Below are positions 13,988 to 29,516 of a stretch of DNA of 32,237 bases, piece by piece. The notes beneath the pieces were generated by a model. That model searched no databases. It was given only the letters and a program-made list of their open reading frames with translations, and was not told where the DNA came from. Each line of letters starts with the position of its first letter. Position 1 is the first letter of the stretch. This stretch comes from Acidobacteriaceae bacterium (GTDB taxonomy: Bacteria; Acidobacteriota; Terriglobia; Terriglobales; Acidobacteriaceae): the NCBI GenBank assembly GCA_003166855.1, contig PMUM01000067.1, forward strand, positions 1 to 32,237. Reading direction: 5' to 3'. A program made the position numbers and the translations under genes.

Positions 13988-14890
13988 TTACTTCACATAC
14001 TTTCCATTCTGCACTTCATACTCGATGCGGAAAGGCTTCTGCATTTTGCGGTCCTGCCACCCTTCCTGCGCGATCAGGTTGTTGGCCTGCGCGAGGCGTT
14101 CGGAAGGCAGGGGATGGGAGCGGAAGTATCCCTGCAAGCTTTGAATGGCGAGTTGCGTGAGTTCTTCTTCCGGACTCTGCGCGTGAACCACGTATTCGCT
14201 ACGCAGTTTGCTGAAGCGTTCGAACATCGTGACCGCCCCATAGGGGGAATATCCGCCCAGCACCGCCAGACGTATGCCTTCGCGGTCGGCTTCGAGTTCC
14301 TCGTCTTTGTTGTACCCGGCTTCCCATACCTGAACCGGGATTTGCAGAATCGCGCCCACGATTCCAAGCTGCAGATTGCGGAGGCGGGCTTCGATCTGCA
14401 CGCGCTCGGCGCAGTGATAGTGATCGATGTGTTCGATTTCATGTCCGATCACGGCGGCGAGTTCGTCCTCGCTGGTCATCAGATCGAGCATGCCCTCGCC
14501 CACATAGACCGGGCCTCCGGGAAGAGAGAAGGCGTTGATCATGCCGCGGTCGGGTACCAGATGAAATGAGTACGGCAGATGCCGGTGAGCGTTCGCGCTG
14601 ACGGCGTTTCCCACCTGCTGCACGTAGCTGTCAAGCGCCTGTTGTTCCGGACTCAGTTTCTCGGTGGAGATGGAGTATCCCGCAGCCAGTTGTTTGCCGA
14701 CGGCGATCTCGTCGGCATCGGAGAGGCGGGTGAGACGCATGGGCGCGCGGCTCAGATCGCGCTGGGCGTCGGCTGCCATGGCGACGATTGCGTTCGCAGA
14801 TACTGGCGTGGGGTCGTGGCGGCGCTGGCTCAAGTAGAGGCCAGCGACCCCGACGAGCAACACAACCACGAACGCGGCAGCACGTTTCAT
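13988..14890 (-). CDS. M48-family zinc metalloprotease, membrane-anchored or exported
   Basis: This 300-residue protein begins with a hydrophobic segment (MKRAAAFVVVLLVGVAGLYL), which could be a signal peptide or an anchor. The peptidase domain carries the zinc motif HEIEH (residues 150-154) and the downstream EELEADREG segment (197-205) that supplies the glutamate ligand, as in M48 proteases such as BepA/LoiP. INAFSLPGGPVYV (118-130) is the conserved substrate strand of the family. Its start codon overlaps the stop of the upstream DUF2339 gene as ATGA (14887-14890), so translation of the two is probably coupled. A longer reading frame runs further upstream but lies inside the DUF2339 gene and is rejected. 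The likely role is cleavage of misfolded or surplus envelope proteins; the coupling suggests the large membrane protein as partner or substrate, which is an inference. Confidence 0.9.
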   Translation of the reverse strand: MKRAAAFVVVLLVGVAGLYLSQRRHDPTPVSANAIVAMAADAQRDLSRAPMRLTRLSDADEIAVGKQLAAGYSISTEKLSPEQQALDSYVQQVGNAVSANAHRHLPYSFHLVPDRGMINAFSLPGGPVYVGEGMLDLMTSEDELAAVIGHEIEHIDHYHCAERVQIEARLRNLQLGIVGAILQIPVQVWEAGYNKDEELEADREGIRLAVLGGYSPYGAVTMFERFSKLRSEYVVHAQSPEEELTQLAIQSLQGYFRSHPLPSERLAQANNLIAQEGWQDRKMQKPFRIEYEVQNGKYVK

Positions 14891-17800
14891 AGGAATTGGC
14901 GGATCTTCTCGCTGTACTTGTTGTACAGGAACGAAGCTGACACCATCGCGACGCCGACGATCACGAACGTGACGTAGCGATCGCGCCAGGTCCAGGCCCC
15001 TGACCACATATCCAGAAGCAATATCTTCCCAAAACTTGCGATCAGCAGCAGGAATCCAGTCAGCCGAAAACTGCGTTCTTTGATCACGAAAGCGAAGATC
15101 ATGATCGACAGCGCTTCCACTCCCCACGCGACGGTTACCATGCCGGCGCGCATCTTGATGGCGAGCATCAGCGTGAGAAGCGCGATGGGCGCAAAGAACA
15201 TGAATTGCTCAGGATGCCGCATCAGCGCTCCAAACCAGTTGTCAGACAATTTGGCCCGGTAGCGGTCCCGCCACTGGAACGCGAAGGGCAGGCATGCCAG
15301 CAGAAGAGCAATGGCAGCGCCCAGAACAAAATATCTCCCCGTCCAATCCCCTCCGGTGAAATAGCTCGCGCCGAAAAGGTTGTGCATCACGCCCCGAGTG
15401 CAGACTCCAACTGTGAGAAGTAGCGACTGATGCAGGAAAAGCGGCCGATCCAGCCAAAGAGCGAGCCCGAACAGAACGAAAACCACCGCCGCCCATGCCG
15501 TGACCAGCCATTCGTTGGCAAACTGGAAGTAAAGAAGAGCGACGACGGTGCCGGTCCCCAGGTAAGCAAGCAGCATGTCGAAGTGGAACCCACGGTCATC
15601 GCGCGCCGACTGTTCGTCCAACTGGGCGTATACGAAGAACAAGATGAGGGCGATAGGCAGCACGGTGTACATCCGAGGTCCCCAGAATTCGCCAGGATTC
15701 CCGGCGGTCAGGTTAGCAAAGAAAATCCGGCCGAAGGAAGCGGCTAGCGCTACATATGCCTGGAACCGAAACTGCCGAACTTTGCGCCAGAGACCGTACT
15801 CGAAGAGAACCAGACCGAAGACGGCCCATCCCACGGCGATACTCAGCGACTCCAACTCATACCACAAGAGCAGGGAAACCAACGCCGACGCCGCCCACGA
15901 ATAGATGTGATGAAACTCGCGCTGGCGGAATTGTTCCGGCATGCGGATGATCCGCGACATCGCATAAAAAATTACCGCAACAATTGCCAGAGAGAGCAGT
16001 CGGACGCTGATGCCGTGCCATTTATCCAGCAAGTAAAGGTTCACGGTGACGCTGCGAGCCATGGTCAGTGCGGCGAGCGCGTGCCCTTGCCACCCCAGGT
16101 CGTCTAGTTCAAATCGCCGATCGACGAGCGCGAGCACCAGAGCAAACACAGCCCAGATCGCTGCAAGCCATGCGTTGGGCGCTTCATGCCACGCCAGGAA
16201 CGCTAGCAGAGCAGTCGCGGCAAAAGTATGCAGGTAAGCGACTGCCTGCCGGCCTTCGGAATCGGGCGTCGTTGATTTGCGGGAAAGGAAGTAGAGGCCC
16301 GCGGCCACAATCGTGATCGTGACCAGGCGCAGAGAAACGCCCGGCCAGATAGATTGCTCCAGCTCGAGGTTGAACGTGTAAGCGCGCACCAGCGCACACG
16401 CGGCCACAGCATTGGCCTGCCACCCGAGTGGGCGATAGCCAATCCGGCGCATGACCAGCGCGAGAACGACTGCGAAAACGATCCAGGAAACGGCGATCCA
16501 AGGCGCGGGCACAGCTTCGTTGAGCATCCAGACCATCAAACCAGTGCCCGCTGAACTGTACGCGATGCGACCAAAGCGCACGTGGTCCGGATTCGGCACG
16601 CGGATTCGCCGCGCGATCCAATAAACGCCCGCGACAACCGGCAATGCGGCAAACGCATGCAGAGGAATGTTGTGCCAGCGCTGAACGCCCGAAGGATCGG
16701 CAGTCACCGCGGCAAGGGTCGCCAGGACTCCCAACAGATGCGCGTGCCACGCCAGCACGGGATATCCGATCTGTTGGCCAACTTCCAGCAGCAGCACCGC
16801 GAAAGCGATTCCTGCCAGAGGCTGCCAGAGTTCGGGTACTTCGAAGTAGATGAGCGCGGTGACCAGCGCCGTCCCTGCGAAGGCGAACATCCCGCGGAAG
16901 AAACGTTGATTGTAGTCATCCTCCCGAGTAGCGGCCCATTTTGCTGTGAGATAGAAAGCTGCAGCGAGAATCGGCAACGTGATCAGGCGGTTCTGGACAT
17001 GTGTGTACTGCGCGACTTCACTGTGCAGGTTGACCACTCCGACGCGATACAGAGTCAACGCGCCCAGGACGCCGTATTGCACTTGTAGGTGGATCGATCG
17101 CAGTCTTTGGCCGAGCACGGCCAGAGTCAACATCACACCGGCGAAGGCGAGAGCGGTCCAGTCGGCTGAGAATAATGCCCAAGCCGCGGCCGCAGCCGAG
17201 AAGCATCCCAGATAGGAATGAGCGCTCAACATGGGCGCGTCCGGAGGATCGGTGAAGAACTGCGGCCAGCGTTGCCCCGCGAGCAGAGTGTTCAAGTAGA
17301 AGACGGCGGCGCAGAGTGCGAACATGACTCCAGCGTCCAGCACGACATCGTCGCCGACGCGCCGTGCGACCATGAGCTGCTGAAAATCGATTCCGACCAG
17401 ATGCAAGCCGACCAGCAAGCCCGCGAATAGTCCCAGCCGGCGGAACACGACTTCGCCGACCATCACACCGGCAGCGAGAAATGCTTCGGCGCCAATCAAC
17501 CAGAGAATGGCCACGTTGTTGCCGGAGTAGCGGAACGGTACCGCGCCAATCATCAGAGCCGCGCCCAGAACGCTCAGAATGATGAATGCCTCGCGGCGGC
17601 GTTTGGTGATCAAAAGCTGTCCCAGGCTGAACTCGATCGCTCCGATGATCAGAAGCGCCCAGAACGCGAGCTTCGGTTGCACCGACTGGAACTTCATGGC
17701 TCCTAGCAGCAGCAACGTGTTGAGCAGCGCGGCCGCAGTGGAAATATGTTCTTCGGTCGGGGATTTCGTTTTCCGGACAATGTACGAAACGCGATAAGTG

Positions 17801-19233
17801 ATCCAGTAGAACAAGAGGATCGCAGTACTGGCGTGGTAGTCGGGAAACGCGTGTCCCTCAGCGCCGGTGGGACCGAGCAGCCGGTATAGCCAATACAAAT
17901 GATTTCCGTAACTCGACAGGATGCCGAAGACTTCAAGTTCGAACCATCCCATCTTGATGACGATGGCGACGAGTCCGATAGCAAGGATCACGCCGGCAGA
18001 CAGGCTGTAGACGTCGTCATTGCTGAGCGCGACGGTGCCGTAGGCCAGCAGAAACGCGATCCCGGTCACCACCTGCGAGCGGTAGCGCAGGGTGTGCACA
18101 ACCATGGCGAGAGCCACTGCAAGCATGAGGATGAGATCAGCGCTGAGAGAATCCAGCACGTGCATGGCTGCCACGTGGTTCAGCGCATAGGTGGTCCAGA
18201 ACAGCAGCGACCATCCGCCACCGATCGAGGGATAGGAGAAGACGCGGTAGCGCTCGCGCTTCTCCAGAAAAACGCCACCGCCGAGAAGCGCAAAAGAGAT
18301 CACGTAAGAGAGCGCGACTTTGCCCCAAGGACCGAGTTGGCCGAGTTCCTTGATTCCAAAGTACGCAACGCCCAGCACGATCAGAACGATGCCGATTTTA
18401 TTCAGCCAATTCCTGCCCAGGATTTCTTCCAGCGCGAATACCGATTTCATGCGCTCCTGGGACGTCGGCTTGGGAACCGTAGCTGGCGGATGGGCCGCGG
18501 GTGATGAGGTGTGGAATGCGGCATGCTGCGGGGACGCGCTCACGCGAGCGGCTGGTGGCGGAGGTGCGATCGAAGGTGATGGCGGCACCGCCGAAGTTGT
18601 CGGCGATGCCGTAGGCGGCTGCATCCGCGATAGTGGAGGTGGAGTGGAGTCTACCGGAGCCGGAGACGGAATTGCGGGAGCCGGCACGACGGGTGCGTGT
18701 GGTCTCGTCTCAGCCGGGGCCTTGGCTGCAATCGGCGGAGCAACAACGGGAGGTGGAACGGGCCGCTGTTTTGGTTGCTCGACAATTTCAGGAACTGTCG
18801 GCTTCGACTCCTCGTTGTCTCTTGCGGCAACTAGATCGGGAAGCTTCTCAGGCGGAACGTGCGGCGTAACGCTCGCAGGAGGCACGATCGCTGGAGGGGC
18901 GCTTACCGCATCCGGAGCTTTCTGCAATACTGGCGCAGCCGGAGCCGTTACCTTGACTGGCTCGGTGTGGACCGCCGAACGAACGGACTGCGGCGTTTCG
19001 TGAACAGGCTCTGCAATCGGAGGCGCAGTTGCTATCTGGCGCCTGAGTTCCAGCAGCTCACGATGCAGGGCATCGTTCTGCTTGGTGTTCAGTTCGGCCA
19101 GATCCTGCAATTGCAAACGAAGTTTATTTTGCTTCCAGGCGCTGAGCCCGACTGCGGCCAGAGCGAACACGATACTAACCGTGGGCTCGCTCAAGGCTAA
19201 TACCGCGATCACTACGAGAACGAGTTCCAGCAT
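14887..19233 (-). CDS. Giant DUF2339 polytopic membrane protein
   Basis: This 1,448-residue protein begins with a transmembrane helix (MLELVLVVIAVLALSEP and on), followed by a coiled-coil stretch (about residues 36-70 with LNTKQNDALHRELLELRRQI). A long Pro/Ala/Val-rich linker follows (about 72-265), then a region with dozens of hydrophobic helices to the C-terminus. The conserved core starts at ALEEILGRNWLNKIGIVLIVLGVAYF, which I recall as the DUF2339 signature, and family members are often 900-1,500 residues. The start is ATG at 19233 because GGGGGAG lies 5 nt upstream; a GTG two codons earlier overlaps that ribosome site. Four nucleotides at the 3' end overlap the M48 protease gene. The function of DUF2339 proteins is not established; they are inner-membrane proteins. 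Confidence 0.88.
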   Translation of the reverse strand: MLELVLVVIAVLALSEPTVSIVFALAAVGLSAWKQNKLRLQLQDLAELNTKQNDALHRELLELRRQIATAPPIAEPVHETPQSVRSAVHTEPVKVTAPAAPVLQKAPDAVSAPPAIVPPASVTPHVPPEKLPDLVAARDNEESKPTVPEIVEQPKQRPVPPPVVAPPIAAKAPAETRPHAPVVPAPAIPSPAPVDSTPPPLSRMQPPTASPTTSAVPPSPSIAPPPPAARVSASPQHAAFHTSSPAAHPPATVPKPTSQERMKSVFALEEILGRNWLNKIGIVLIVLGVAYFGIKELGQLGPWGKVALSYVISFALLGGGVFLEKRERYRVFSYPSIGGGWSLLFWTTYALNHVAAMHVLDSLSADLILMLAVALAMVVHTLRYRSQVVTGIAFLLAYGTVALSNDDVYSLSAGVILAIGLVAIVIKMGWFELEVFGILSSYGNHLYWLYRLLGPTGAEGHAFPDYHASTAILLFYWITYRVSYIVRKTKSPTEEHISTAAALLNTLLLLGAMKFQSVQPKLAFWALLIIGAIEFSLGQLLITKRRREAFIILSVLGAALMIGAVPFRYSGNNVAILWLIGAEAFLAAGVMVGEVVFRRLGLFAGLLVGLHLVGIDFQQLMVARRVGDDVVLDAGVMFALCAAVFYLNTLLAGQRWPQFFTDPPDAPMLSAHSYLGCFSAAAAAWALFSADWTALAFAGVMLTLAVLGQRLRSIHLQVQYGVLGALTLYRVGVVNLHSEVAQYTHVQNRLITLPILAAAFYLTAKWAATREDDYNQRFFRGMFAFAGTALVTALIYFEVPELWQPLAGIAFAVLLLEVGQQIGYPVLAWHAHLLGVLATLAAVTADPSGVQRWHNIPLHAFAALPVVAGVYWIARRIRVPNPDHVRFGRIAYSSAGTGLMVWMLNEAVPAPWIAVSWIVFAVVLALVMRRIGYRPLGWQANAVAACALVRAYTFNLELEQSIWPGVSLRLVTITIVAAGLYFLSRKSTTPDSEGRQAVAYLHTFAATALLAFLAWHEAPNAWLAAIWAVFALVLALVDRRFELDDLGWQGHALAALTMARSVTVNLYLLDKWHGISVRLLSLAIVAVIFYAMSRIIRMPEQFRQREFHHIYSWAASALVSLLLWYELESLSIAVGWAVFGLVLFEYGLWRKVRQFRFQAYVALAASFGRIFFANLTAGNPGEFWGPRMYTVLPIALILFFVYAQLDEQSARDDRGFHFDMLLAYLGTGTVVALLYFQFANEWLVTAWAAVVFVLFGLALWLDRPLFLHQSLLLTVGVCTRGVMHNLFGASYFTGGDWTGRYFVLGAAIALLLACLPFAFQWRDRYRAKLSDNWFGALMRHPEQFMFFAPIALLTLMLAIKMRAGMVTVAWGVEALSIMIFAFVIKERSFRLTGFLLLIASFGKILLLDMWSGAWTWRDRYVTFVIVGVAMVSASFLYNKYSEKIRQFL

Positions 19234-19428
19234 TGGCACTCCCCCGTATGTTCGTGATTCCGTAGCCTAAATACTAGAACGCGAAGCAGGGCAGGTCTTG
19301 CATTTTCTTTCCTCCCTGCAAGCTGGGAAGTTACTAACGTTCTGATCTATTGTGACTGGATTCGTGAACCCCTTCGTGACAAGATGGGCACAACTCCAAC
19401 GACAACAGGAGCTTGTGAGAGCACGTTT

Positions 19429-24676: not shown

Positions 24677-25879
24677 ATGACACCGAAGCAGATTCTAGAT
24701 TCATTTTCAGAAACATTGATGCGGGACGAGCGGATTCTCAGCGCGCAGGAACGGGCACTCGTAGCCACGCTGCTGCAGCATGCCAAGGCTGCCACCAGCG
24801 AGAACCCGGAAACGCAGGATGCAGTCCGGTCCGTGATTGCGTCGGCCGTAGGCGAAACTGTCGCTCAGCGTGCTTTCGCGGTGCTTGGCGGAAGCATCGT
24901 CGAACGCATCCTGGGGGATAGCGGGGTGAGCGACGCAGGGTCGGTGCGAACCGCGGACCTCCCGCTGCGTGCGATGTCTGACCCGCAACCGCCCTCGCAC
25001 TCGCCCGGTCCGCAACCACCGGGCGTTCGAGCCCCGCATAAGGAGCCGCACCGTCCGGTGCGCGATACTCCGGTGGCCCCGTCGCCGAAGGATCCCCAAC
25101 CGCCCAGCGCCCCGCTGGGCACGCCCAGTGATCCCCAGCCGCCGTCGGGACAGCCTCACCCGCCGGGAGTTCGCGCGCCAGTGATACCGCCTCCCAAAGA
25201 TCCGCAGCCGCCGAGTTCGGTTCGCACCACGGTGGTCTCGGAAACAAGCGCAGCGGTAGCCGAGCGGGCATCTCTGTTGCCGGCGCAGTGCGTGGTTCTG
25301 GATGAGTTCCTGGCCCCACAGGAACTGGAGGAACTCACGCGCTTCGTCCAGGAGCATGAAGCCGACTTCAGCGCCAGCGAAGTGGTTTCTCCCAACGCGG
25401 ATGGTGGAATCGTCAACTACGAACACCGCCGGTCCCGCGTTCTGATGGACTTGGCCCAACACCAGGACATCATGCTGGAACGCATCAAAGCCGTGTTGCC
25501 GCAGGTCCTGGACAAGTTAGGGATGGGAGACTTCTGTATCGCAGGAGTGGAGACCCAGGTCACCGCCAGCAACGACGGCGATTTCTTCCATTTCCACAGC
25601 GATAACAGCAGCGATCGCGTGGCCTCACGCTACCTGACGTTTGTCTACTTCTTCCATCGCGAGCCTCGCCAGTTCGAAGGGGGCGAACTGCGGATTCACG
25701 ATGCGCACCTGCAACACGGAGCGTACGTCAGTGCGGGCAGCTACCAGACGATCATCCCTCAGCAAAACCAGATCGTCTTCTTCCCGTGCGAATTGCTGCA
25801 CGAAATCACCCCGGTGAATTGTGCCTCGCAGCACTTCGCCGACAGCCGCTTCACCTTAAACGGATGGCTTCGTCGCTAA
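24677..25879 (+). CDS. 2-oxoglutarate/Fe(II) oxygenase (prolyl-hydroxylase-like) with internal Pro-rich hexapeptide repeats
   Basis: This 400-residue protein has three parts. Residues 1-80 are a helical domain (MTPKQILDSFSETLM, then IASAVGETVAQRAFAVLGGS). Residues 101-180 are Pro-rich, with five [D/G]PQPP[S/G] hexapeptides at 102-107, 111-116, 139-144, 152-157 and 175-180, four of them exactly DPQPPS. Residues about 200-400 are a double-stranded beta-helix oxygenase: iron ligands H307-S-D309 in FHFHSDN and His375 in LLHEITPV, and a 2-oxoglutarate-binding arginine in ADSRFTLNGW (Arg391). The set resembles PKHD/prolyl 4-hydroxylase-type enzymes, which hydroxylate protein side chains. ATG 24677 is preceded by GGGGAGG 10 nt upstream. 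The last 16 nt overlap the next gene. The tethered Pro-rich segment could be the enzyme's own substrate; that is inference. Confidence 0.85.
   Translation: MTPKQILDSFSETLMRDERILSAQERALVATLLQHAKAATSENPETQDAVRSVIASAVGETVAQRAFAVLGGSIVERILGDSGVSDAGSVRTADLPLRAMSDPQPPSHSPGPQPPGVRAPHKEPHRPVRDTPVAPSPKDPQPPSAPLGTPSDPQPPSGQPHPPGVRAPVIPPPKDPQPPSSVRTTVVSETSAAVAERASLLPAQCVVLDEFLAPQELEELTRFVQEHEADFSASEVVSPNADGGIVNYEHRRSRVLMDLAQHQDIMLERIKAVLPQVLDKLGMGDFCIAGVETQVTASNDGDFFHFHSDNSSDRVASRYLTFVYFFHREPRQFEGGELRIHDAHLQHGAYVSAGSYQTIIPQQNQIVFFPCELLHEITPVNCASQHFADSRFTLNGWLRR
24977..25216 (+). repeat. Coding region of the Pro-rich DPQPPS repeats
   Basis: This stretch encodes residues 101-180 of the oxygenase. Two larger units are visible: SDPQPPS ... 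PPGVRAP ... KDPQPPS (101-144) and SDPQPPS ... PPGVRAP ... KDPQPPS (151-180). The four exact DPQPPS copies are written with four different codon sets; for example the serine is TCG, AGC, TCG and AGT. Confidence 0.85.
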
Positions 25880-26910
25880 ACAACTCGGCGTGGCTGGAGT
25901 GGATGACAACCCTGGTGGGAGGAGTGTCGCGGCACACTTATGCCGCGACATTTCCTCCTAATCGTTTCTATTGTCTGCTCGATGAACTACCTCTGCATTT
26001 GATCCCGCAACCTTTTCTCAGATCGCCGCGCCGGCACGAACATGCATCGCAATCGCTTGTCCTAAACCCCGATTGCATTGTGTGTGACGACGGGAAGTTG
26101 CCCGATGAACTGGCGTCGCGGAACGAACTATTCTCTGGTTTTGCTCTGCAGGGCACCATGGCGTGGGTGCGAAACCTGGCAACAGGAAACCTGCTCCCTT
26201 TCTGGCTGGGGCCACAAATGCAAAGCGTGGTTCGAGATCTGCGCCCTAATGAAGTGGCGCCGGTATCAGTGCCGGAAAGCGTGCGGAGCGTGTTGGCTGC
26301 GGCCGATATCCTGATCCCCGAAGATCGAACCAGCCAGCCCAGCCGGCAGCGTGAAGAGTTGGTTAACCGGGCGTCTCCAGTGTTTCGCGAAAGAGGCTAT
26401 GCGCCGCTCGGAGACTTGATTCATCCGTTTCATGTCGCGGCGTTGCGCCGCTATTATCGCCACTTGATTCGCACTGGCGCGATCCGCCTTGGCGATAAGC
26501 AAAGCCCTCGTCGCTACGTGGCCTACAACGAGCCCGTGGCACGCTTTTTCCACCAGGACGTCACGGCTACTCTGGGTGCGTTGGCCGGCGAGCCTCTCAA
26601 GCCGTCGTACGTCTATATGGCCTCGTACTTGGGCGGAGCGGAACTAAAGAAGCACACCGACCGCGAGCAATGTGAGTTTAGCGTCACTCTCTGTCTCGAC
26701 TTCTCTCCCGAGCCCAATCTTGAGACTCCGTGGCCCATCCGTCTCGATACGCCGACAAGCAATGTCACCGTCTACCAGGCCTTGGGAGACGGACTAGCTT
26801 ACCGCGGAACGCGATTGCCTCACTATCGCAGCCCGCTGGCCCAGGGGCAAACCTCGACCTCGATCTTCTTTCACTATGTGGGAGCTGATTTCGCAGGATC
26901 TTTGGATTGA
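25864..26910 (+). CDS. Second 2OG/Fe(II) oxygenase-like protein, translationally overlapped
   Basis: This 348-residue protein overlaps the preceding oxygenase gene by 16 nt, so the two are almost surely co-expressed. Residues about 1-150 form a domain I do not recognise. From residue 173 the sequence reads like a PhyH/2OG-type fold: FRERGYAPLGDLIHPFHVAALRRYYR is a typical entry helix, followed by YNEPVARFFHQ, KPSYVYMASYLGGAEL and the likely iron motif H264-T-D266 in KKHTDREQC. A distal histidine is probably His320 in RGTRLPHYR. The arginine expected to bind 2-oxoglutarate after the distal histidine is not obvious; the closing strand is STSIFFHYV. It is therefore either an active oxygenase with a variant co-substrate site or a non-catalytic partner. 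Its stop codon lies in a 14-nt tandem repeat. Confidence 0.72.
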   Translation: MASSLNNSAWLEWMTTLVGGVSRHTYAATFPPNRFYCLLDELPLHLIPQPFLRSPRRHEHASQSLVLNPDCIVCDDGKLPDELASRNELFSGFALQGTMAWVRNLATGNLLPFWLGPQMQSVVRDLRPNEVAPVSVPESVRSVLAAADILIPEDRTSQPSRQREELVNRASPVFRERGYAPLGDLIHPFHVAALRRYYRHLIRTGAIRLGDKQSPRRYVAYNEPVARFFHQDVTATLGALAGEPLKPSYVYMASYLGGAELKKHTDREQCEFSVTLCLDFSPEPNLETPWPIRLDTPTSNVTVYQALGDGLAYRGTRLPHYRSPLAQGQTSTSIFFHYVGADFAGSLD

Positions 26911-26954: not shown

Positions 26955-29516
26955 CTAATGCAGTCCTGAGATGAGACATAGATCGGATAGTGTCTGGTTG
27001 TAGCTATAAGCAAAGTGCGTGCCATCGCGGCTGACCACAATTGGCGCAACCATCACTACCCCGGCAGGAGTTCCGGGCCTTAATTGCTGAAACATCGTCT
27101 CTTTCCCTGTCGCGATTTCCACCTTGTAGATCTTGCTGGGGAACTCCCCCAAGTGGTAGCCGTAAAGCAGGGAGCCATCGTTCGACCATTGCACCGGATT
27201 GAATGTGGCTCCCAACTTGGCAATGGGCCGAGGAGCACCGCCATCGAGGGCATAAATCTGCGTGGATTGATTCGGTCCGATCCCTAGGATGTAACGGCTG
27301 TCGGGCGACAAGGGGCCGCAATGAACTCCTTCCGGGGTTGCCGCTCTGGCTTTTCCGGTTGGCACGTCGATCACATAACATCGCGGCGCGCGGCCCGTCT
27401 CATTGCCATTTATGGCAATCTCTTGCCCGTTTGGCAGGAAGCGGGCCCATCCGTTTTGAATGTGCGCCAGCCCGCTGACATTGATCAAGCGCGGCTGGCC
27501 TGCGCCGATCGGCAGAAGCGTCAACTGTGGTGGCTGGCTGGTGGAGATCGAGATCGCCCAATTTCCGTCGGGTGATAAGCCTCCCGCGCTGCCTTCACCG
27601 AGACGAATCGGCAGAGAGCCATCGACCTTACGGAGGGCAACGGCATACTTTGGACCGGCCGCTTCACTGGCATCCTCGAACAAAACAGATTGCCCGTCGC
27701 GCGAAATGTCCCGTGCCGAGTTCAGATCGTGCCATGACAGGTCCACATCCTCTTTGTTGCCTGGAGTGCTGAAGGCCATGGCCAGCCGCTTCGAATTCAA
27801 GGTAACCAGCACCCGCCCGTCCGACGCTATGTCCTGCACAACGATGGATGTCGGCAAGGCGAGCACTGTGCGAAGCTTTCCGGAGAGATCCACTGCCATC
27901 AGATTCAGGTTGTGTCCTTGTTCCACCGCCGCGAACCAGATTTCCTTACCATCGTGGCGCCAGGCAACACCGTGTTCGGACTCCCACTCCACCGTTAGAG
28001 TGTGCACATGTCCGGCCAGATCGATGACGGAGACCACCCCGCGATTGTCCCAAAGGGCAGGATGGTCCATGAAAGCGATCTTGTCCCCCTGCGGCGAAAA
28101 CCGAATATTGCTGATCCAACCACTGCTCTGATAGAGCACATTGCCGCTGGGATATTCCAGGCGGCTGTGGCCGTCCACGGAATGCACGATGGCTAACCTG
28201 CCCTGCGGATCCCAATCCGCCCAACGTACATCTGCCTGCAATTCCCTGGGAGACCCTCCTGCCAGGGGCGTGCGAGCCAACATTCCATCCACCGTCTCAA
28301 GTTGGCCGTTGTGAGTGCCGTGCAGCACGACCGCCAGTTCGTTGCTGGGGGAAATGGCCAATAGATTGGCATCGCTCAAATCAAGCGGCTGCGCCAGAAG
28401 GGAATTCCCCACCGTTGAGAACAGCTGGATCGGCTTGCCATTCCATGCGGCGCTGTAAACGATGGACTGGCCGTCAGGGACGAAGCGCGCCGAATACACC
28501 GTACCCTCTTCAAACGTTAAGTGACGATAGGTCGGAGGTGCGACTGGAACCTTCAGTAGCTGGGCAAGCGCAAAAAAAACCATTGCCGCAGCCAACAATG
28601 CAACAACACCCCAAGGTAGTAATGAGCCGGTGTGAGTGATTGGCTTGGGCGAGGGAATCGTCGTCCCCGGCGAAGAAGACCCGGAAAGCGTCTGCAATGC
28701 GAACACCAGATCCTTGGCCGACTGGAAGCGGTTCTCCGGATCCTTTTCCAGACAATGCTTGACAATGTCTTGATATCCCGGCGGGACCGCAGCATCGTCC
28801 AAATTGACGCCGGCCGGTTCTTCGCGCAGCACTGCGGTCATGGTGTCGACTTCGGTCTCGCCACGAAACGCGCGGCATCCCGCCATCATTTCGTAGAGAA
28901 TCGCGCCGAAGCTGAAGATGTCGCTGCGGTGGTCCACAGGCTTGCCCCGCAGCTGTTCCGGCGACATGTAGGCGACAGTGCCAATGACAGCCCCGTGCTT
29001 GGTCACCGTGGTCAGGCTTTCAATCGGACGATTCTCTTCGGTCGGAGCCTGCAGCTTGGCCACGCCGAAATCCAGAATCTTGATGCGTCCGTCGTTCGTG
29101 AGAAACAGATTCTCCGGCTTCAGATCGCGATGAACGATGAGCCGGTCATGTGCGGCCGTGAGTCCCTGTGCGATCTGCAGAGCGTAGTTCGCAGCCTCGC
29201 GCATGGGGATGGGGCCTTCCGACAGGCGCTGCCGCAGGTTCTTGCCCTCGAGCAGTTCCGAGACAATGTAAGGCACCGTGCCTTCGAAACCAACGTCAAA
29301 AATGGCAAGTATGTTGGGATGGTTCAGCGCGGCGGCAGCCCGAGCTTCTTGCTCAAAGCGGCGCAGATGGTCGGGGTTATCGCTCGAAGCCGGCCGGATC
29401 AGCTTCAAGGCAACATCGCGTCCTAGTCTCTCGTCGCGCGCGCGAAAGACTTCGCCCATCCCTCCTGCACCAATTTTTTCGAGGACCCGATAGTGCCCCA
29501 CCAGCTGGCCGATCAT
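26955..29516 (-). CDS. Membrane Ser/Thr protein kinase (PknB type) with C-terminal beta-propeller sensor
   Basis: This 853-residue protein starts with a Hanks-type kinase domain (residues about 8-270). It is complete: glycine loop IGAGGMGEV (15-23), ATP-binding lysine in VALK (Lys38), helix-C glutamate in FEQEAR, catalytic HRDLKPEN (129-136), DFG (149-151) and SPE (185-187). A linker and one transmembrane helix (about 300-318) lead to an extracytoplasmic region of about 530 residues. That region is rich in WD40/TolB-like (PD40) strands such as ARFVPDGQSIVYSA, IRFSPQGDKIAFMD and LSPDGNWAI, probably a beta-propeller that senses a ligand or envelope state. The order kinase, helix, propeller is common in Acidobacteriota. 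Start is ATG 29516 with a weak ribosome site. It is divergent from the frameshifted proline-rich gene and convergent with the oxygenase pair. Confidence 0.92.
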   Translation of the reverse strand: MIGQLVGHYRVLEKIGAGGMGEVFRARDERLGRDVALKLIRPASSDNPDHLRRFEQEARAAAALNHPNILAIFDVGFEGTVPYIVSELLEGKNLRQRLSEGPIPMREAANYALQIAQGLTAAHDRLIVHRDLKPENLFLTNDGRIKILDFGVAKLQAPTEENRPIESLTTVTKHGAVIGTVAYMSPEQLRGKPVDHRSDIFSFGAILYEMMAGCRAFRGETEVDTMTAVLREEPAGVNLDDAAVPPGYQDIVKHCLEKDPENRFQSAKDLVFALQTLSGSSSPGTTIPSPKPITHTGSLLPWGVVALLAAAMVFFALAQLLKVPVAPPTYRHLTFEEGTVYSARFVPDGQSIVYSAAWNGKPIQLFSTVGNSLLAQPLDLSDANLLAISPSNELAVVLHGTHNGQLETVDGMLARTPLAGGSPRELQADVRWADWDPQGRLAIVHSVDGHSRLEYPSGNVLYQSSGWISNIRFSPQGDKIAFMDHPALWDNRGVVSVIDLAGHVHTLTVEWESEHGVAWRHDGKEIWFAAVEQGHNLNLMAVDLSGKLRTVLALPTSIVVQDIASDGRVLVTLNSKRLAMAFSTPGNKEDVDLSWHDLNSARDISRDGQSVLFEDASEAAGPKYAVALRKVDGSLPIRLGEGSAGGLSPDGNWAISISTSQPPQLTLLPIGAGQPRLINVSGLAHIQNGWARFLPNGQEIAINGNETGRAPRCYVIDVPTGKARAATPEGVHCGPLSPDSRYILGIGPNQSTQIYALDGGAPRPIAKLGATFNPVQWSNDGSLLYGYHLGEFPSKIYKVEIATGKETMFQQLRPGTPAGVVMVAPIVVSRDGTHFAYSYNQTLSDLCLISGLH

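Follow-up and report, generated by a model that had tools for sequence, protein, structure and literature searches.

Collagen prolyl 4-hydroxylases (P4H) target Pro-rich repeats, and the Skp1 prolyl 4-hydroxylase of Dictyostelium, PhyA, acts on a separate protein and is not known to carry tethered repeats. The Pseudomonas enzyme PPHD and human PHD2 share an HxD...H...R set of residues, and for most prolyl hydroxylases of bacteria no substrate is known, to our knowledge. According to passages of PMC7864055, PPHD hydroxylates EF-Tu in trans, and in protists the prolyl hydroxylation of Skp1 enables its glycosylation. In the alpha subunit of collagen P4H, as described in part of PMC9676403, N-terminal dimerisation and peptide-substrate-binding domains precede the C-terminal catalytic domain. 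Fused borosins (types I-III), by the account in sections of PMC8429565, place the modifying enzyme and its peptide substrate in one chain.

The window, that is, the whole stretch of 32,237 nucleotides analyzed here, encodes on its forward strand a protein in which a helical N-terminal domain (N-domain), a Pro-rich repeat segment and an oxygenase domain follow one another. Its domain order is like that of the collagen P4H alpha subunit, whose substrate is supplied in trans; PHD2, with HIF as its substrate in trans, differs in the same way from an enzyme acting on tethered repeats. With an enzyme and a maintained repeat segment in a single polypeptide, the protein has the architecture of a fused, borosin-like RiPP. 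The analogy with borosins, drawn in an earlier sequence-only reading of this DNA, extends to that architecture alone, since in fused borosins the modification is backbone N-methylation and is proven, and the core peptide sits at the other chain end. The reading favored here, at a probability of about 0.45, is that a PHD-type prolyl hydroxylase carries tethered repeats as its own predicted substrate. The likely substrate would then be tied to the enzyme, making the substrate question directly testable. The features concerned are the following.

24677-25879, forward strand: oxygenase-repeat gene, ATG at 24677, stop codon ending at 25879, 400 aa
24677-24931, forward strand: helical N-domain, residues 1-85, with high conservation (11 positions invariant across 32 rows)
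24932-25288, forward strand: Pro-rich repeat segment, about residues 86-204 (repeat statistics, AlphaFold2)
24980-24997, forward strand: repeat 1, DPQPPS
25007-25024, forward strand: repeat 2, GPQPPG
25091-25108, forward strand: repeat 3, DPQPPS
25130-25147, forward strand: repeat 4, DPQPPS
25199-25216, forward strand: repeat 5, DPQPPS
25289-25876, forward strand: 2OG/Fe(II) oxygenase domain, predicted prolyl-hydroxylase (PHD/Skp1-P4H) type (PF13640, ligands, fold, profile)
25595-25597, 25601-25603, 25799-25801 and 25847-25849, forward strand: codons of H307, D309, H375 and R391
25864-26910, forward strand: partner gene, 348 aa, oxygenase-like, H264-x-D266...H320, its first 16 nt shared with the 3' end of the oxygenase-repeat gene
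26955-29516, reverse strand: Ser/Thr kinase with a PD40 match, convergent, a conserved neighbor

The open reading frame and its three parts stand as the sequence-only reading had described them. AlphaFold2, run on a 61-row alignment, places four helices within residues 3-80 (pLDDT about 70-87), leaves residues 81-199 without helix or strand and mostly at low confidence, and folds residues 206-399 into a jelly-roll that is mostly confident. A GTG three codons 5' of the ATG would give a protein of 403 aa; M1 is invariant in all 32 aligned N-domain rows, a relative outside that set (L072/L092) has V at the M1 position, and a GGGGAGG lies, by eye, 10 nt 5' of the ATG. On the minus strand, ORFs as long as 251 aa run across the gene, while conservation and the Pfam match track the plus frame, and the one minus frame translated in full contains several stops. 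A promoter and terminator scan returned no promoter-like site and two terminator-like sites against 1.9 in shuffles. The N-domain (residues 1-85) has no match in Pfam or NCBIfam, and its profile reaches at best E 0.23 against the PDB. Relatives in cyanobacteria also have a helical N-terminus, but its comparison with the N-domain (hhalign probability 4.8%, E 0.0083) gave no ground for asserting homology.

The catalytic domain belongs to the 2OG-Fe(II) oxygenase superfamily, matching PF13640 (2OG-FeII_Oxy_3) at 60.8 bits against a cut-off of 27, and the iron ligands H307/D309/H375 and the Arg391 noted in the earlier reading are invariant columns in the 61-row alignment. W397, six residues past R391, is invariant in the same alignment; in PHD2, W389 stands six past R383. 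Comparison of the fold with the PDB by Foldseek gave 430 matches at E<=0.001, and the best 50 of these 430 are all prolyl hydroxylases (PPHD, PHD2 in most rows, Dictyostelium PhyA and a Trichoplax PHD), many of the 50 being entries of the single protein PHD2. PPHD (4iw3, 4j25) and human PHD2 are the best fold matches among those listed, at about 18% identity. PhyA, which is among the listed fold matches, is also the best PDB match of the 61-row profile (6t8m, E 4.9e-13), followed by two yeast TPA1 sequences at 2.6e-5; TPA1 is titled PKHD-type. A search with the single sequence points the other way, having as its sole PDB match the PKHD-type protein Sbal_3634 (3dkq, E 0.0046). PKHD-type proteins (YbiX, PRK05467) share the superfamily, but the window protein falls far below the cut-offs of the NCBIfam PRK05467 models, at 14-19 bits against 143-399. 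Of the PKHD/P4H group named in the earlier reading, the P4H/PHD side is the better fit, the nearest known members by both fold and profile lying there. By predicted fold and profile, the window enzyme is probably a PHD-type prolyl hydroxylase. One position counts against its hydroxylating its own repeats: the active-site Tyr303 of PHD2 is seemingly not conserved, the hand alignment placing A297 there.

The five [D/G]PQPP[S/G] hexapeptides reported from the sequence are all present, four as DPQPPS and one as GPQPPG. PQPP is present in five copies, where shuffling of the segment would lead one to expect 0.09, and the most frequent 4-mer of the segment has p = 0.003 against shuffles. As a control, an equally Pro-rich segment (26%) of a large minus-strand protein in the window gave p = 0.98 and no repeated motif. 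This control protein (14887-19239, reverse strand) is by eye multi-pass, with the 26% Pro segment at its N-terminus, and is presumably DUF2339-like.

Conservation of the repeats was assessed in 34 proteins, namely full-length proteins including the window's own (L001) and one from another genus (L062); they are the 35 available minus L074, whose frame is broken and which contains N. Members truncated at a contig end or with a disrupted frame (L030/L105, L066/L108, L067, L068, L064/L116, L076) and members found later (L110, L111, L114, L115, L117) lie outside this set. The start of L072 was set nine residues too early, its segment being unaffected. Segments are 89-169 residues long with 19-32% Pro. 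PQPP occurs 134 times across the 34 segments, exceeds composition shuffles (500, p<0.05) in 28 of them (the other six being L008, L010, L012, L029, L062 and L069), and is present in at least two copies in 27. The looser form P[QENDHRKI]PP is found in every segment and at least twice in 31. The residue that follows PQPP is S in 70 cases, G in 29, T in 18, A in 11 and another in 6, so that S/G/T/A account for 128 of 134. A linker of any unordered sequence with no conserved hexapeptide, which was to count against the earlier reading, is not what this 34-protein set shows.

Of 128 possible codings, 62 appear among the motif copies, and third positions are shared only slightly more by repeat units within a gene (0.42) than by units from different genes (0.37). 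Exact 24-nt repeats occur in only 6 of the 34 segments, one of them (L012) having near-perfect repeats with 111 repeated 24-mers. The varied codings and the rarity of exact repeats indicate that most motif copies are not fresh duplications. Over 29 close pairs, which are not independent, pooled pN/pS is 0.12 in the N-domain, 0.16 in the catalytic domain, 0.26 in the motif and 0.51 in the rest of the segment, the contrast between the last two being an upper estimate because the aligner prefers Pro-to-Pro matching. Motif pN is below that of the rest of the segment in 28 of the 29 pairs (exception L004/L011) and in all seven non-overlapping ones (L001/L002, L006/L009, L008/L010, L014/L071, L017/L026, L018/L025, L023/L024; sign p 0.008). 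Judged by these comparisons, the repeat segment of the window is kept as a peptide sequence and is no arbitrary linker.

The repeat unit changes outside this set. In the window's own genome (93% complete), the whole protein has one match, and a search with the repeats yielded, apart from the protein, a weak match at E 0.58 and another at E 0.88. Among 150 related genomes, 43 have a match to the protein: 37 of the 45 genomes of the genus, the window's own among them, and 6 elsewhere in the family, four of these last matching in the catalytic domain only (G074, G083) or in the N-terminal part only (G057, G080). Elsewhere in Acidobacteria the units are GPRPPQP (L110), GPNPPG (L116), PNPP/PEPP (L113), eight copies of APRPPSPGPPSPG (L117) and, in the Acidiferrales L114 and L115, GPGP[KR] 13 and 10 times; L111 has a looser Pro-rich form. 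P[QENDHRKI]PP is absent from the segments of L111, L114 and L115. The conserved motif expected of homologues is kept within the 34-protein set, in the loose form P[QENDHRKI]PP, and replaced in other genera, as with GPGP[KR]; in the sequences compared, the repeat motif is lineage-specific, and no hexapeptide is universal across Acidobacteria. A Pro-rich segment is present in every readable member and clearly repetitive in most, being weakly so in L008, L010, L029/L112, L069 and L111.

In a tree of 77 catalytic domains (midpoint root for drawing; L117 and L119 omitted for unknown residues), the acidobacterial rows with the N-domain architecture, 41 in all, group together (UFBoot 98, SH-aLRT 94), two of them (L105, L109) having lost the N-domain to a broken frame or contig end. 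Adjoining this group is L118, which has neither N-domain nor repeats (99/92), and rows from Streptomyces, Micromonospora and G083 come next outside (94/84). The label 'fused' needs eight changes on the tree, eight clade rows (L082, L089, L092, L093, L103, L105, L109, L110) being labelled 'other' through the Pro threshold or a broken contig or frame. Outside the clade, the 29 ORFs with a locatable domain start (three from L127 and two from L129; L133 and L143 cut at a contig start) have 2-17% Pro before the catalytic domain and no repeated Pro motif, a single P-x-P-P occurring there in two. The catalytic domain thus needs no such segment, and with one clade of the N-domain type and repeat-free relatives around it the fusion looks like a single event. 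On this phylogeny, the fusion of N-domain, repeats and oxygenase probably arose once, in Acidobacteria.

A separate substrate gene was also sought. Neither an N-domain search of the 150 genomes, with matches in 40, nor a profile search across the class (399 genomes), with eight fused-type matches, revealed a genuine separate gene of N-domain plus repeats; two histidine-kinase-like ORF matches of the latter (E 0.008-0.009) are read as chance. In G057, a genome with no oxygenase-domain match, an ORF (L060:5742-6260) combines the N-domain with four SGPRPPQP repeats and lacks the oxygenase. It was rejected as a precursor gene, its tail running antisense into a kinase gene whose match ends at about codon 193, and the locus (within L060:5262-6260) is read as a deletion remnant or assembly join. 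Other unfused N-domain ORFs are contig-end cuts (G080 in L061, G015, G017:C187) or have a broken frame (G027, G036). The idea of a separate small gene thus comes down to one remnant and several truncated or broken ORFs.

Pro-rich neighboring ORFs (at least 10 Pro within 30 residues) were considered as trans substrates in cyanobacteria and others and are not put forward, their enrichment not being significant: they are present at 5 of 12 oxygenase loci and in 7 of the 40 other stretches taken from the same 12 genomes (Fisher p = 0.12), and at 5 of 19 loci once seven further oxygenase loci are included. Proteins with PTPTPT or (AP)n tracts adjoin the oxygenase at L140:4153-4977 and L121:1665-2870, that of L140 having a PEP-CTERM match just below the cut-off. 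Among six window proteins scanned with Pfam no peptidase, exporter or recognition element was found, so that a released peptide product is not supported.

The overlapping partner gene is predicted to encode a second oxygenase-like protein. It has no Pfam or NCBIfam match, and its best PDB E values are 0.14 (sequence) and 0.32 (profile). H264, D266 and H320 are invariant in 39 aligned rows, the AlphaFold2 model has a mean pLDDT of 87.7, and the 50 Foldseek matches listed are all 2OG oxygenases, including SnoN, HalD/HalB and PHD2. Among the 42 acidobacterial loci with the N-domain architecture (L077-L117, L119), 41 have the gene as a neighbor, the exception being L105, whose frame is broken and which shows neither partner gene nor kinase. 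The gene also lies beside the oxygenase in L118, L065, L136, L137 and L149, where the pair occurs without N-domain and repeats, and belongs to the oxygenase cluster of L131 as well; it was not found at the cyanobacterial loci retrieved, of which some are short. The pair without repeats means that other substrates are required in those five loci. The convergent kinase lies downstream in 38 of 43 acidobacterial loci (three of the five misses are contig ends) and purQ upstream in 37 of 43 (three of the six misses are contig ends); in the Acidiferrales L114 and L115, the kinase is retained and purQ is absent.

Some pairs have further attachments. At L065:4392-6524 and L149:6329-8761 the partner protein is fused to a sulfotransferase domain (PF13469), and L136 and L137 look alike by eye; in these four loci, hosted by Actinomycetota and one acidobacterial genome, the adjacent oxygenase has a different N-terminal part, GNAT-like by eye.

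If the favored reading holds, the protein would be a cytoplasmic enzyme whose jelly-roll domain uses Fe(II), O2 and 2-oxoglutarate to hydroxylate prolines within the P-x-P-P-[S/G/T/A] repeats tethered to it, acting on its own chain or on a neighboring one. The product would be a polyproline rod bearing hydroxyproline. The helical N-domain may bind or present the repeats or hold chains together, and the second oxygenase may act on the same segment or partner the first enzyme. Self-hydroxylation is weakened by the occurrence of the enzyme pair without repeats elsewhere and by the variation of the repeat unit. Both observations suit the main rival, which we regard as a serious contender while judging it short of probable: the substrate would be another protein, and the unmodified segment a polyproline spacer or docking rod that keeps the two domains, and perhaps also the second oxygenase, at a distance from one another, or binds a partner. 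The motif varies by lineage and the Pro-rich character stays, as expected if stiffness is selected, and the relative PPHD is described in passages of PMC7864055 as modifying folded EF-Tu in trans. A pure spacer, however, would need no PQPP followed by a small residue, and the other Pro-rich segment of the window keeps no motif. Self-modification accounts better for the P-x-P-P-small-residue rule, and a rod for the variation of the unit.

Improbable, by our estimate, is a neutral low-complexity linker that grows and shrinks by slippage. The range of segment lengths and the near-perfect repeats of some members such as L012 would fit such a linker, but the synonymous codons are varied, exact 24-nt repeats are confined to a few segments, and motif pN lies below that of the rest of the segment. 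A tethered pseudosubstrate, in which the repeats fill the active site of their own or the second oxygenase until displaced by the true substrate or by hydroxylation, giving an oxygen-dependent switch, draws on the same data as self-hydroxylation, and the conserved kinase neighbor could add regulation; AlphaFold2, however, shows the segment as low-confidence coil, and we consider this switch slightly less credible still.

Relatives in Rhizobiales bear on the chemistry of the family. In plants, HPAT (hydroxyproline arabinosyltransferase) enzymes have hydroxyproline as their target, and PF11397 includes the Skp1 GlcNAc-transferase. In L131 (Hyphomicrobiales) the catalytic relative is followed by a PF11397 GlcNAc-transferase (1.7e-41) and a PF23452 HPAT protein (2.5e-7, cut by the contig end). 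It is preceded, in order, by a small Pro/Thr-tailed protein (131 aa with a TPGAPTPAP tail; cluster L131:1224-8040), a PqqD-domain protein, the partner relative and an O-FucT-like protein whose match (2e-5) is below its cut-off. In L133:3-2917 (Rhizobiales), a PF11397 protein (4.6e-43) and then an HPAT-PqqD protein (3.8e-14, 7.3e-10) come after the catalytic relative. Of the 30 genomes checked, 2 contain PF23452, those of L131 and L133; among 397 genomes of the order of L131 it is present in 1, the L131 genome, and it is absent from all 14 control genomes. PF11397 occurs in 4 of the 30, two being the genomes of L131 and L133 and another a Planktothrix, where it lies far from the oxygenase. Neither family has a match in nine Acidobacteria (the window's own genome and eight others), and there is accordingly no sign of glycosylation in the lineage of the window.

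These clusters, which recall the PhyA-Skp1 glycosylation of protists, offer supporting sequence evidence of prolyl chemistry for relatives of the catalytic domain, and they possibly encode a bacterial hydroxyproline-glycosylation pathway acting on a ribosomal peptide. If confirmed, they would be the bacterial counterpart of plant and protist hydroxyproline glycosylation. A wider picture, which we hold only tentatively and think rather doubtful, is that two oxygenases turn lineage-specific repeats in the chain of one of them into a hydroxyproline-rich rod, extensin- or collagen-like and in cis, and that a related Rhizobiales version would work in trans and then glycosylate, as protists do on Skp1. 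The enzyme itself is of a known kind; no description of such an enzyme fused to a maintained repeat array, or paired with a second oxygenase, was found among the open-licence PMC papers searched, by title, nor was a bacterial hydroxyproline O-arabinosyltransferase with a prolyl 4-hydroxylase among the titles of the open-licence PMC matches listed.

Two further arrangements of the family were observed. L118:5959-9631 (G030) holds a second, repeat-free copy of the oxygenase and partner genes, followed by a protein with two glycosyltransferase-type matches, and a Leptolyngbyaceae record (L127:1845-4128) carries three oxygenase genes of the catalytic-domain family in tandem.
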